Assembly (NCBI GenBank): GCA_902560065.1
Contig: CACEKG010000004.1
Location: forward strand, 1-64,000
Length of the DNA: 64,000 nucleotides
Direction of reading: 5' to 3'
Origin: an uncultured Bacteroidota bacterium
Lineage (GTDB): Bacteria > Bacteroidota > Bacteroidia > Flavobacteriales > Flavobacteriaceae
The translations under genes and the position numbers were made by a program. Numbering within the stretch: the first letter of the stretch is position 1; each line of letters starts with the position of its first letter. Positions 61-40,225 of the stretch are shown piece after piece. Under the pieces are notes generated by a model. That model was not told the origin of the DNA, made no database searches, and saw only the letters and a list, made by a program, of their open reading frames with translations.

Positions 61-1032
61 TTAATAAATAGATGCTTTTAATTTTAAGCCTAAATTTTCA
101 TCCCAATTCATCATTAGGTTTAAATTTTGTAATGCTTGACCAGAAGCTCCTTTTGTTAGATTATCTATAATACTTGTAATTAATAAAATGTTTTCGTGTT
201 TACATAAATGTATGTAACAGTTATTGGTATTTATTACTGATTTTAATGAAATTTCTTCATCAGAAATATCTGTAAATGGGTGGTTTTTATAATAATTTTT
301 ATATATATTTTTTATTTCGTTTAAATCTCCACTATACTTAGTATAACTAGTTGAAAATATACCTCTTGTAAAATTTCCCCTTTGAGGTATAAAGATCAAT
401 TTTGATTTTTGATTTAATCCATTTAATGTTTGATTAATTTCTAAAAGATGTTGATGATTAAAAGCTTTATACCATGAAATATTATTATTTCTCCAACTAA
501 AATGTGTAGTATCAGAGTTTTTCATTCCAGCACCGGTACTTCCTGTAGTTGCATTAACATGAATTGTATCTTTAATTAGATTATGTTTTGCCATTGGGAT
601 TAAACTAAGTTGAATTGCTGTTGCAAAACATCCAGGGTTCGCTATGGCATTTGCTTTTTTTATTGTTTCTTTATTTAACTCTGGTAAACCATAGATAAAC
701 TTTAGATTATTTAATTCATTATTTTTTCTAATTCTAAAATCATTACTTAAATCAATAATTTTTGTTGTTTTCAAAAATTTATTTTTTTTAAGAAACTTTA
801 ACGAATTTCCGTGTCCAGCACATAGGAATAAAACATCTATTTCTTTTTCGGGGATATTGGTAAATTTCAATGTAGTTAATCCTAATAAGTCCTTATGGAT
901 TTTAAAAAGATAATCTCCAGAAAACTGAGTGCTATATACAAACTTTATATTTAATTTTGGATGGTTGATAATTAATCTAATTAACTCACCTCCTGTATAT
1001 CCTGATCCTCCAACAATACCAACTTTTTTCAT
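61..1032 (-). CDS. argC: N-acetyl-gamma-glutamyl-phosphate reductase
   Basis: This 323-residue enzyme catalyses the NADPH-dependent reduction of N-acetylglutamyl phosphate to the semialdehyde in arginine synthesis. The N-terminus carries the Rossmann motif GGSGYTGGEL at residues 8-17, and the catalytic cysteine is Cys135 in NPGCFATA. The length is normal for the family. It lies 2 bases downstream of argG and just upstream of proC, in one operon led by a GNAT gene and an arginine-rich leader peptide. The start ATG at 1032 gives the canonical N-terminus. Confidence 0.96.
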   Translation of the reverse strand: MKKVGIVGGSGYTGGELIRLIINHPKLNIKFVYSTQFSGDYLFKIHKDLLGLTTLKFTNIPEKEIDVLFLCAGHGNSLKFLKKNKFLKTTKIIDLSNDFRIRKNNELNNLKFIYGLPELNKETIKKANAIANPGCFATAIQLSLIPMAKHNLIKDTIHVNATTGSTGAGMKNSDTTHFSWRNNNISWYKAFNHQHLLEINQTLNGLNQKSKLIFIPQRGNFTRGIFSTSYTKYSGDLNEIKNIYKNYYKNHPFTDISDEEISLKSVINTNNCYIHLCKHENILLITSIIDNLTKGASGQALQNLNLMMNWDENLGLKLKASIY

Positions 1033-1034
1033 GT

Positions 1035-2219
1035 TTATTTTTTTAAATTATGATAAATTTTTCCTGCATTTGCATTTATTTTGATAAACCCTTTAACATC
1101 TGTTGCATTCCAATTTTTATTTACTTCTCCATAAGTTCCAAATTCATTAGTCATTAGGTCATTTTTCGATTTTATTCCTTCTAAATCAAAACTATACGGT
1201 TTTAATTTTAGGTAAACTGTTCCACTTACATTTTTTTGACTATTTGATAAAAAAGATTCTATGTCCCTCATTACCGGATCAAAGTACTGTCCTTCGTGTA
1301 ACAACATTCCATAAAATGAAGAAATAGATTCTTTTTGAAATTGTTGCCATTTAGATAGGGTATGTTTTTCAAGTAAGTGATGCGCTTTGATTATGATCAA
1401 AGGAGCTGCTGCTTCAAAAGCAACTCTACCCTTAATTCCAATTATTGTATCTCCTATGTGAATATCTCTTCCTATGGCATATTTTTTTGCAATATTTTCT
1501 AGATCTCTAATAATATTAATTGGCGAATCTTTTTTTGAATTCAATGAAATTAATTCTCCGTTTTTAAATTCAAGTTTAATTTTTTTTTCATTTTTTAATT
1601 TAAGTTGACTAGGGTAGGCTTTTTCAGGTAAAGGATGTTTTGATGTTAATGTTTCGCTTCCACCTATTGAAGTTCCCCAAAGCCCTTTGTTAATAGAGTA
1701 TTTAGCTTTTTTCCAATCTATCATTACTCCTTTAGACTTTAAATAATTTATTTCGTCTTTTCTAGAAAGATTAAGATCTCTTATTAAAGTAATTATTTCA
1801 GTTTTAGGAGATAGTATTTGAAATATTTGATCAAATCTAACTTGGTCATTTCCAGCTCCGGTTGATCCATGAGAAATATATTTAGCCTGAACTTTATTTG
1901 AATAATTAACTATTTCAATAGCTTGAATTATTCTTTCTGAACTGACAGAAAGAGGATATGTGTTATTTTTTAATATATTTCCAAAGATTAAATATTTAAC
2001 TATTTTATTATAAAATGGAGAAATTGCATTTATACATTTATATTTTTTTGCTCCTAATTTTTTAGCTTTTTTTGAAATTTGATTTATCTCTTCATTTGAA
2101 AATCCACCTGTATTAATTGTAATGGCATGAACTTGATAACCATCAGATGATAATTTTTTTAGACAATATGAAGTGTCTAATCCACCACTATAAGCTAATA
2201 CAACAATTTTATTTTTCAT
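1035..2219 (-). CDS. argG: Argininosuccinate synthase
   Basis: ArgG joins citrulline and aspartate using ATP. The protein begins MKNKIVVLAYSGGLDTSYC, with the PP-loop SGGLDTS right at the N-terminus as in all ArgG; the frame stays open upstream to 2336, but that extension overlaps the GNAT gene and has no family resemblance, so I take the ATG at 2219. Length is 394 residues, normal. Other family sequences visible are HGSTGAGNDQVRF and GTSIGGSE. The start overlaps the end of the GNAT gene by 11 bases, suggesting translational coupling. Part of the arg operon. Confidence 0.95.
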   Translation of the reverse strand: MKNKIVVLAYSGGLDTSYCLKKLSSDGYQVHAITINTGGFSNEEINQISKKAKKLGAKKYKCINAISPFYNKIVKYLIFGNILKNNTYPLSVSSERIIQAIEIVNYSNKVQAKYISHGSTGAGNDQVRFDQIFQILSPKTEIITLIRDLNLSRKDEINYLKSKGVMIDWKKAKYSINKGLWGTSIGGSETLTSKHPLPEKAYPSQLKLKNEKKIKLEFKNGELISLNSKKDSPINIIRDLENIAKKYAIGRDIHIGDTIIGIKGRVAFEAAAPLIIIKAHHLLEKHTLSKWQQFQKESISSFYGMLLHEGQYFDPVMRDIESFLSNSQKNVSGTVYLKLKPYSFDLEGIKSKNDLMTNEFGTYGEVNKNWNATDVKGFIKINANAGKIYHNLKK

Positions 2220-2748
2220 ATTTTTTATTTTTTGGGTCATATAACATTCCAGTGCAAAGGCACATCGTTCGATTTGTTCTAGTAAGAACATCATAGTTTT
2301 TGCATGTTTGACATCCTTTCCAGAAGTCAGGGTCATCCGTAAGTTCAGAAAAATGAACTGGTTTGTATCCTAATTCGTAATTAATTTTCATTACCGCCAT
2401 TCCTGTTGTAATCCCAAATACTTTAGAATTGGGATATTTTTTTAATGAAAGTTCAAATACTTTTTTCTTTATTTTTTTTGCTAAACCTTGTTTTCTATAT
2501 CTGGGAGAAACAATTAACCCTGAATGAGCTACATATTTGCCGTGACCCCAAACTTCAATGTAACAAAATCCAGCAAAGATATTATTGTCAATAGCAATTA
2601 CTGCATTCCCATTTTCAATTTTTTTTGAAATATATTCGGGAGTTCTTCTTGCTATACCAGTACCACGAACTTTTGCAGCCTGATCAATATGGCTACTTAT
2701 TGTTTTTGAGTATTTAATATGTTTAGCTTTTGCTAGAATTATTTGCAT
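2209..2748 (-). CDS. GNAT acetyltransferase at the head of the arginine operon (candidate N-acetylglutamate synthase)
   Basis: A 179-residue GNAT-fold protein with the acetyl-CoA loop around RYRKQGLAKKIKKKV (residues about 84-98). The C-terminus has an unusual cysteine set, CQTC near residue 146 and CLC near residue 163, followed by TGMLYDP. It is the first gene of the arg operon and overlaps argG by 11 bases. Bacteroidota lack classical ArgA in many genomes and this gene position is conserved there to my knowledge, so a role as the N-acetylglutamate synthase is a reasonable inference from context; the substrate is not shown by the sequence. The cysteine tail suggests metal binding or a structural role. 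Confidence 0.75.
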   Translation of the reverse strand: MQIILAKAKHIKYSKTISSHIDQAAKVRGTGIARRTPEYISKKIENGNAVIAIDNNIFAGFCYIEVWGHGKYVAHSGLIVSPRYRKQGLAKKIKKKVFELSLKKYPNSKVFGITTGMAVMKINYELGYKPVHFSELTDDPDFWKGCQTCKNYDVLTRTNRTMCLCTGMLYDPKNKKYEK

Positions 2749-2776: not shown

Positions 2777-2797
2777 AATCTTTTACTTTAAAAGATT
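2777..2797 (-). terminator. Candidate attenuator terminator hairpin of the arg operon
   Basis: On the minus strand an 8-bp inverted repeat (AATCTTTT / AAAAGATT) with a 5-base loop is followed by a short T run, between the leader peptide and the GNAT start. It is AT-rich and so weak for a terminator, but lies where an attenuator would be. The AATC at its start can also pair with GATT in the preceding hairpin, giving a mutually exclusive fold. Confidence 0.4.
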
Positions 2798-2798
2798 A

Positions 2799-2821
2799 GA
2801 AAATCGGAATATCCAATTTTC
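2799..2821 (-). promoter_or_regulatory. Second hairpin in the arg leader
   Basis: On the minus strand a 9-bp stem (GAAAATTGG pairing with CCGATTTTC, one G-T wobble) with a 5-base loop lies 9 bases after the leader stop codon and directly before the candidate terminator. Its GGATATT portion can alternatively pair with AATATTC just after the leader stop, as an attenuator switch would need. Confidence 0.4.
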
Positions 2822-2830
2822 AAGAGAATA

Positions 2831-2890
2831 TTACACCCACAAGGGGCGAAAAGGGAAACGACGAACAGAAGTTTTTGTTCGGTTATTCAT
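2831..2890 (-). CDS. Arginine-rich leader peptide (putative arg operon attenuator)
   Basis: A 19-codon open frame reads MNNRTKTSVRRFPFRPLWV and stops at TAA. Four of 19 residues are arginine, encoded CGA, CGT, CGT and CGC, whereas arginine in the surrounding genes is overwhelmingly AGA. The stretch is about 43% GC, well above its surroundings. It sits 82 bases upstream of the first arg gene, after a promoter-like sequence and before two tandem hairpins, the arrangement of a transcription attenuator in which arginyl-tRNA shortage stalls the ribosome. A hairpin (CGAACA / TGTTCG, 2862-2881) lies within the coding part. Control by arginine is inferred from position and composition. Confidence 0.7.
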   Translation of the reverse strand: MNNRTKTSVRRFPFRPLWV

Positions 2891-2925
2891 ATTAATATTT
2901 AACAATTGCCCTAGCATTTCGGATG

Positions 2926-2957
2926 CAAATTTGAGCTTTTTTTTATTTACAGCCAAA
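2926..2957 (-). promoter_or_regulatory. Promoter of the arg operon leader
   Basis: On the minus strand TTTG (2957-2954) is followed after 20 bases by CAAATTTG (2933-2926), close to the Bacteroidota -33/-7 consensus TTTG...TAnnTTTG with one mismatch in the -7 element. The bases after it, GCATCC, also follow the -7 element of the rplS promoter in this window. Transcription would begin about 30 bases before the leader ATG. Confidence 0.5.
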
Positions 2958-39825: not shown

Positions 39826-40170
39826 TTATTTTTCTCTTATTTTAGCTTTTTTACCTGTAAGTTTTTTGAAATAGTAGATTTTAGATTGTCTAACTTTCCC
39901 TTTACTGTTGACTTCTATCTTTTGAATTGTAGGTAAATTTATAGGAAAAATTCTTTCTACTCCTATATTTCCAGACATTTTTCTGATTGTAAATGTTTTT
40001 GTTAAACCAGTCCCTTTAATTTTAATTATAACACCTTTAAAAAATTGTGTCCTGACTTTATCTCCTTCTCTAATATCATAAAAAACAGTTACAGTATAAC
40101 CAGAGGAAATTTGAGGGAAATCTTTTTTTTCAATAAATTGAGTTTCAACAAAATTTACTAAACTTTCCAT
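39826..40170 (-). CDS. rplS: 50S ribosomal protein L19
   Basis: L19 sits at the 30S-50S interface. The 114-residue protein starts MESLVNFVETQFIEKKDFPQ at 40170; the frame extends upstream to 40203 but the extra residues do not look like L19. Seen are GYTVTVFYDIREGDKVRTQFFKG and GVERIFPINLPTI. It has its own promoter, downstream of trmD. Confidence 0.96.
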   Translation of the reverse strand: MESLVNFVETQFIEKKDFPQISSGYTVTVFYDIREGDKVRTQFFKGVIIKIKGTGLTKTFTIRKMSGNIGVERIFPINLPTIQKIEVNSKGKVRQSKIYYFKKLTGKKAKIREK

Positions 40171-40225
40171 TTTTTGAGAAATTAAGTTTACATAGAATAA
40201 CATTCACGAATTTCGTCAGAGGTTA

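Follow-up and report, generated by a model that had tools for sequence, protein, structure and literature searches.

The GNAT-argG-argC operon of the DNA analysed here (a stretch of 64,000 nucleotides, hereafter the window) is preceded by a short ORF with conserved arginine codons, and we consider it likely that this ORF encodes a cis-acting arginine-sensing leader peptide for the operon, acting through ribosome stalling, with a non-classical readout, and substituting for the repressor ArgR. Judged from sequence comparison, the sensor part of this reading, i.e., CGY codons conserved at a conserved place in an ORF heading an arg operon, is well supported; for the readout, a stalling-controlled, factor-dependent switch is our best guess.

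The leader ORF and its conservation

The frame running from 2890 to 2831 on the minus strand encodes MNNRTKTSVRRFPFRPLWV followed by a stop codon (19 aa) and has a G+C content of 26/60 by direct count. All four of its arginine codons are of the CGN type (CGA, CGT, CGT, and CGC), compared to 253 AGA, 46 AGG, 17 CGA, 15 CGT, 2 CGC, and 1 CGG codons in the 21 genes of the window, and the chance of four CGN out of four given this usage is about 1e-4. A previous sequence-only reading of the window had pointed to this 19-codon frame with four CGN arginines amid AGA-using neighbours, which the translation and codon counts bear out. It had also started the frame at 2890, a position which comparison with a sister genome and more distant relatives disfavours. 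In the sister genome (an assembly containing N's), the codon at the 2890 position is TTG and the ATG at 2917 is retained, and the leaders of 75 relatives are mostly 25 to 28 aa long. Together with the spacing of the upstream TTTG box, this makes ATG 2917 the more likely real start (Table 1).

The promoter-like sequence that the earlier reading had placed before the frame is indeed present, as a TTG and a TTTG box (2929-2926). In 73/75 relatives, the 20 nt before the leader ATG contain a TTTG box (12.7 in shuffled sequences), most often at a distance of 7 to 8 or 15 to 16 nt, the distance in the window being 8 nt. Because the box lies so close to the leader ATG, the leader mRNA probably has almost no 5′ untranslated region.

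Table 1. Coordinates of the arginine leader, its RNA hairpins, and the downstream operon in the window
Feature	Position	Strand	Basis
Putative flavobacterial promoter (TTG at 2956-2954 plus CAAATTTG at 2933-2926)	2926..2956	(-)	Sequence; TTTG box in relatives
Leader ORF, probable true extent (MLGQLLNINMNNRTKTSVRRFPFRPLWV and stop, 28 aa)	2831..2917	(-)	Sequence and relatives
Arg-codon cluster, CGT CGT TTC CCT TTT CGC (RRFPFR)	2846..2863	(-)	Sequence; Arg enrichment in the frame of 62 relatives
Hairpin P0, CGAACA(8)UGUUCG, inside the ORF directly before the Arg codons	2862..2881	(-)	Folding; covariation in 21 relatives
Hairpin P1, CGCCC(CUUGU)GGGUG, holding the last Arg codon	2834..2848	(-)	Folding; relatives
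Hairpin P2, GAAAAUUGG AUAUU CCGAUUUUC	2799..2821	(-)	P1+P2 model match; covariation
Hairpin P3, AUCUUUU(5)AAAAGAU, followed by U's at 2777-2774	2778..2796	(-)	Folding
GNAT acetyltransferase, heading the operon	2209..2748	(-)	Pfam PF00583
argG, argininosuccinate synthase	1035..2222	(-)	TIGR00032, 270.6 bits
argC, N-acetyl-gamma-glutamyl-phosphate reductase	61..1032	(-)	TIGR01850, 310 bits

GNAT was present in 56 of 100 related genomes, and the best 30 loci were inspected by eye. All 30 showed an Arg-rich frame that usually ends in Arg-Arg-(Arg)-Pro-stop; one hairpin sits at the stop codon and another follows. From named genomes scanned separately (marine Flavobacteriaceae MAGs, Zobellia, Maribacter, Flagellimonas, Eudoraea, and others), we obtained 78 loci with sufficient upstream sequence, in all of which argG lies 3′ of GNAT. 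Using as a criterion an ORF of 15 to 44 codons with at least three arginines and ending 60 to 110 nt before GNAT, an Arg-rich leader was detected in 74/78 of these loci, compared to a mean of 6.6 (maximum 12) in dinucleotide shuffles and 16 on the reverse strand. The enrichment is specific to the frame (the last 15 codons of 62 aligned loci hold 3.9 Arg per sequence, versus 1.4 and 1.2 in the other two frames), and it extends to codon choice, CGU and CGC accounting for 277 of the 301 arginine codons in the 78 leaders versus 130/554 in the adjacent GNAT genes. Conservation of an Arg-rich ORF upstream of the operon in related Flavobacteriia, which had been put forward as the check on the initial observation, is thus found, with codons, frame, position, and hairpins all kept across the Flavobacteriaceae. 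In many of the nearest relatives the leader ends in RRRPFGV, RRPLGV, or RRPLWV before the stop, the last of these being the ending of the window bar one residue.

Some lineages deviate from this arrangement. One clade has what appear to be tandem leaders, a second Arg-rich ORF (e.g., MKNLKNKIRCSTPGLPVRNRRRF followed by a stop) lying before the main leader at about 220 to 300 nt upstream of GNAT (seven loci and others). In a large genus of the family, g152, the GNAT operon is kept with a different, less Arg-rich leader (MNKISLHITSLSRTNSPITSPEVRTLSL with its stop, and similar), with CGG codons beside a hairpin. Thirteen loci of this genus share a conserved CTCCCGARGTACGGA with a CGG arginine codon about 200 nt before GNAT.

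Outside the family, where we counted ORFs with at least three arginines in their last 12 codons at the right distance from GNAT, Arg leaders were found in 21 of 32 other Bacteroidia loci, representing 14 of 20 families (shuffles, 2.0; maximum, 5). These leaders have diverged and their hairpins differ in sequence; by eye, in several of the loci a hairpin loop contains the stop codon and a further hairpin comes next. In other classes of Bacteroidota the leader signal was at chance level, except for two convincing loci of a single family. The GNAT that heads the operon is itself kept across the Bacteroidota; it carries a VRGTGIA motif and, at the C terminus, a cysteine cluster (GCQTCKNY...CLCT), and is a candidate for the first enzyme of the arginine pathway.

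Hairpins and the terminator question

The hairpins that the sequence-only reading had seen were recovered by folding, P0 inside the ORF and others downstream. In the window, the folding energies are -5.0 kcal/mol for P0 (z -4.9), -5.6 for P1 (z -2.5), -8.7 for P2 (z -4.2), and -4.6 for P3 (z -2.5). P1 takes the form CGCCC GUAA GGGUG in most relatives, with the stop codon within the loop; a longer P1, with the stop codon just 3′ of it, is found in many of the nearest relatives. P2, which begins about 20 nt after the stop codon, has a family form consisting of a six-pair outer stem, a bulged A, two G-C pairs (GG/CC), and the loop UGNGU, a loop that has diverged to AUAUU in the window's genus. 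P3 is confined to that genus (two genomes, the window and its sister) and was seen in none of the other relatives.

Covariation supports the P1+P2 structure. Across 29 loci, 93.4% of the alignment cells pair and the covariation is 0.277 versus 0.125 ± 0.012 in shuffled alignments; across 62 loci, the values are 95.3% and 0.275 versus 0.129 ± 0.009, a level reached by 0/500 shuffles. Changes on both sides were observed in 8 of the 13 pairs in the 62 loci, one of them in P1, so that the support is mostly for P2, and the invariance of much of P1 and of the P2 core limits the signal there. P1 moreover overlaps the coding sequence, and part of its conservation could come from the Arg codons. P0, found by folding (mean z -0.74 versus 0.02 in a control region), shows both-sided changes in 6/7 pairs among 21 loci of one other clade, with a covariation of 0.567 versus 0.212 ± 0.030.

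A covariance model of P1+P2 has a single match in the window, at 2862-2784 (38.2 bits, E 5.6e-10). It gives one strong match in each of 125 of 201 Flavobacteriaceae genomes, adjoining GNAT wherever the neighbours were examined, and the family genomes without GNAT that were covered for both GNAT and the motif lack the motif too. One genome has GNAT and no model match, yet an Arg leader and two hairpins are visible by eye; the g152 leaders gave no match to the model. No Rfam family was found at E <= 1 in eight leader loci, nor at the leader locus in the window; elsewhere in the window, at 40198-40225 on the minus strand, Rfam identifies an L19-Flavobacteria ribosomal protein leader (RF03130) at the start of an L19-like ORF (39826-40203).

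Other roles for these hairpins were considered and set aside. A P2-only model matched strongly once in each genome, at the arg leader, and P2 as a general attenuator module was rejected as no second strong copy per genome was found. Ten weaker second matches to the P1+P2 model (E 1e-4 to 1e-2) had no leader arrangement, were mostly in coding sequence, and were regarded as noise. Mimicry of a tRNA-Arg anticodon arm by P2, considered for the UACG loops of some Bacteroidia, was dropped since the loops of the Flavobacteriaceae are UGNGU, and the AGGUGA in P2 is unsuited by position as a Shine-Dalgarno mimic. Among Bacteroidia loci from outside the Flavobacteriaceae (five loci), UACGY-type loops with CC/GG closing pairs are frequent in the hairpin that follows the Arg leader; a UNNGY loop pattern is common to these hairpins and to the GG/CC-closed UGNGU hairpins of the Flavobacteriaceae.

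From the end of P2 to the GNAT start there are 42 to 56 nt in most of 62 relatives. This stretch is unstructured (mean z +0.34) and G-poor, with 6.7 C versus 2.6 G in the 42 nt after P2, compared to about equal C and G in the upstream regions of the window genes. A poly-T tract of at least six residues at -45 to -10 of the GNAT start is present in 46/78 relatives versus 3/29 other window genes, about 25 to 35 nt before GNAT and mostly 10 to 25 nt beyond P2, and no hairpin was seen directly before it in the relatives. An intrinsic terminator, i.e., a GC-rich hairpin with an adjacent U-tract, is not conserved at the arg leader in relatives, the 9 nt after P2 containing 2.8 T's and those after P1 4.5, versus 6.7 after the his terminators of the same genomes (13/14 hisG loci scorable).

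The 14 Flavobacteriaceae hisG leaders are of the textbook type, with a run of His codons, a CUCARGCG complementary to the 5′ arm of the terminator, and an intrinsic terminator, which is present in the window's own genome too. Upstream of ilvD in the window, no clear leader was seen. The his leaders show that these bacteria use intrinsic terminators in amino-acid leaders, though apparently not at arg. In the window itself the only terminator-like element is the AU-rich P3 with its short U-run, possibly a lineage-specific terminator where relatives have the poly-T tract. Since the U-run is preceded by P3, the window's genus may have moved towards intrinsic termination, and with its diverged P2 loop as well, its readout may not be that of the other relatives. 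The earlier description of the element as an arginine attenuator therefore largely holds: the Arg leader is conserved, recurs in other families of Bacteroidia, and is present where ArgR is missing, but "attenuator" in the strict sense does not fit an element with no conserved U-tract terminator.

ArgR distribution, proposed mechanism, and competing explanations

A search for the arginine repressor domain (PF01316) found it in 0/12 relatives, and in 201 Flavobacteriaceae genomes it returned one weak, partial match only, with a Bacteroides control positive. A sound argR match is absent both from the window's own genome (66% complete) and from the relatives (complete). In a set of 297 genomes from across the phylum, GNAT was present in 125, ArgR in 110, and both in only 4, against about 46 expected (Fisher 7e-29, a value that overstates the number of independent events, the exclusion being strongly structured by phylogeny). 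The four overlaps comprised one weak match, one five-copy repeat, and two sound cases, the latter both from one family in which GNAT is immediately preceded by argR and an Arg leader was not detected. In these two genomes of one family, one regulator seems to have replaced the other in a natural swap. Because the leader/GNAT operon and ArgR are nearly mutually exclusive, the leader device would take the place of ArgR in these bacteria.

In the mechanism that we propose, transcription would start a few bases before the ORF, as suggested by the position of the TTTG box, and the leader would be translated at once. The sensor would be the charging level of the tRNA-Arg reading CGY, because the arginine codons of the leader are CGN and, in relatives, mostly CGU or CGC. 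P0 is probably a pause site at which RNA polymerase waits for the ribosome. Under arginine shortage, the ribosome would stall on the Arg cluster, a position from which it covers P1, and transcription would continue into the operon; with ample arginine, it would get as far as the stop codon, inside P1 or just beyond it, and leave, allowing P1 to fold. Shut-off would then probably be factor dependent, through the action of Rho on the C-containing, G-poor sequence that follows P2 or through a factor that binds the arg-specific P2. This step is suggested by base composition and by the lack of a conserved U-tract terminator at arg in genomes that have one in their his leaders. That such a device governs arginine biosynthesis instead of ArgR throughout the Bacteroidia, an RNA/leader-peptide system with CGY tRNA-Arg charging, three hairpins, a P2 that recruits Rho or an RNA-binding protein, and an arg-only readout unlike textbook attenuation, is a conjecture to which we give rather less than even credence.

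Control of GNAT translation or of mRNA stability, with P1, P2, and ribosome occupancy setting ribosome loading on GNAT or an RNase cut, is a somewhat doubtful alternative. Ribosomes could load on the G-poor, U-rich sequence preceding the GNAT start, P2 with its bulged A, GG/CC pairs, and conserved loop resembles a protein-binding hairpin, and a precedent has been proposed for the arginine branch of Salmonella orf34-speF (PMC6386406), but the unstructured sequence separating P2 from GNAT leaves the start codon unsequestered. A classical attenuator of the trp/his type, in which P2 (or P3 in the window's genus) would be an intrinsic terminator and a stalled ribosome would favour an antiterminator, seems unlikely. 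The layout is that of known attenuators, the AU stem of P3 in the window is followed by U's, a poly-T tract is frequent in relatives, and the CGCC of P1 could pair with the GGUG of P2 in 97% of cells. This pairing is, however, invariant, without covariation, and disrupted in the window; in relatives, most poly-T tracts are too far past P2, with no hairpin seen before them, and T's are far fewer after P2 than after the his terminators. A ribosome at the Arg codons or at the stop codon would, besides, cover P1 and not P2, given the distance from the stop.

Two further readings concern the peptide itself. Nascent-peptide arrest in the style of TnaC, SpeFL, or the fungal AAP, with free arginine or a metabolite stopping the ribosome at the end of the leader, would be consistent with the recurrent RRRP-stop C terminus and with the stop codon in the hairpin loop, but we think it quite improbable: the C terminus changes along with P1 (RRT and RRTFVRA in two loci, RRRPFGV or RRPLWV in the nearest relatives), the N-terminal half is strongly different between clades so that only the Arg codons persist, and the CGY codon bias points to tRNA charging rather than to the peptide. 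An ORF produced incidentally by a structured RNA, with no regulatory translation, is a reading favoured by the overlap of the final one or two Arg codons with P1; it is nonetheless very hard to credit, as the Arg codons upstream of P1 are kept with synonymous CGT/CGC variation, the Arg enrichment is frame specific, the start codon and promoter spacing are kept, and Arg leaders persist where hairpin sequences differ.

Comparison with known systems

Leader-peptide attenuation has been inferred upstream of amino-acid operons in Flavobacterium psychrophilum, pheA and hisG being among the conserved 5′ elements, and the main text of that study does not mention the arg operon (PMC9723704). Its structured 5′ leaders belong to the same bacterial family as the host of the arg leader. 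No arginine leader in Bacteroidota was found in the main texts of the open-licence literature, and the searchable part of that literature yielded a single bacterial Arg-codon leader, Salmonella orf34 (SpeFL) upstream of speF, in which consecutive Arg codons sense arginine with a non-classical readout involving Rho and RNase G (PMC6386406). The Salmonella leader controls polyamine synthesis, is also regulated by ornithine, and encodes a conserved peptide domain, DUF2618 (PMC6386406); it is unrelated to the arg leader in sequence, structure, and target, the flavobacterial target being arginine biosynthesis.

The arg leader would add arginine biosynthesis to the amino-acid pathways sensed by bacterial leader peptides and offers an answer to how arginine synthesis can be controlled in a large, ecologically important group that lacks ArgR. 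It also yields an RNA motif with covariance support that Rfam lacks, and a contrast inside one genome, where the his leader has a normal terminator and the arg leader does not.

The fungal AAP is likewise an upstream peptide controlling an arginine biosynthesis gene. It is eukaryotic and acts by peptide-sequence-dependent arrest in response to free arginine, whereas the sequence of the flavobacterial peptide is poorly conserved. With ArgR/AhrC the shared job is repression of arginine biosynthesis when arginine is present, which is done there by a DNA-binding protein, absent from these genomes, and would be done here by a leader RNA/peptide. In layout there is a resemblance to attenuators of the trpL/hisL type, including the hisG leaders of these same bacteria, with which the arg leader shares a short ORF with end-product codons at the start of the mRNA and hairpins downstream. 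Enrichment in the end-product codon and a position directly upstream of the cognate operon are features of classical attenuators that it displays. It differs from them in sensing arginine rather than His, Trp, Leu, etc., in having no conserved U-tract terminator, and in the order of its hairpins, with P0 in the ORF, the stop codon inside P1, and an arg-specific P2. From its sequence, the arg leader would thus work as an amino-acid leader peptide while departing from the classical attenuator in its terminator.
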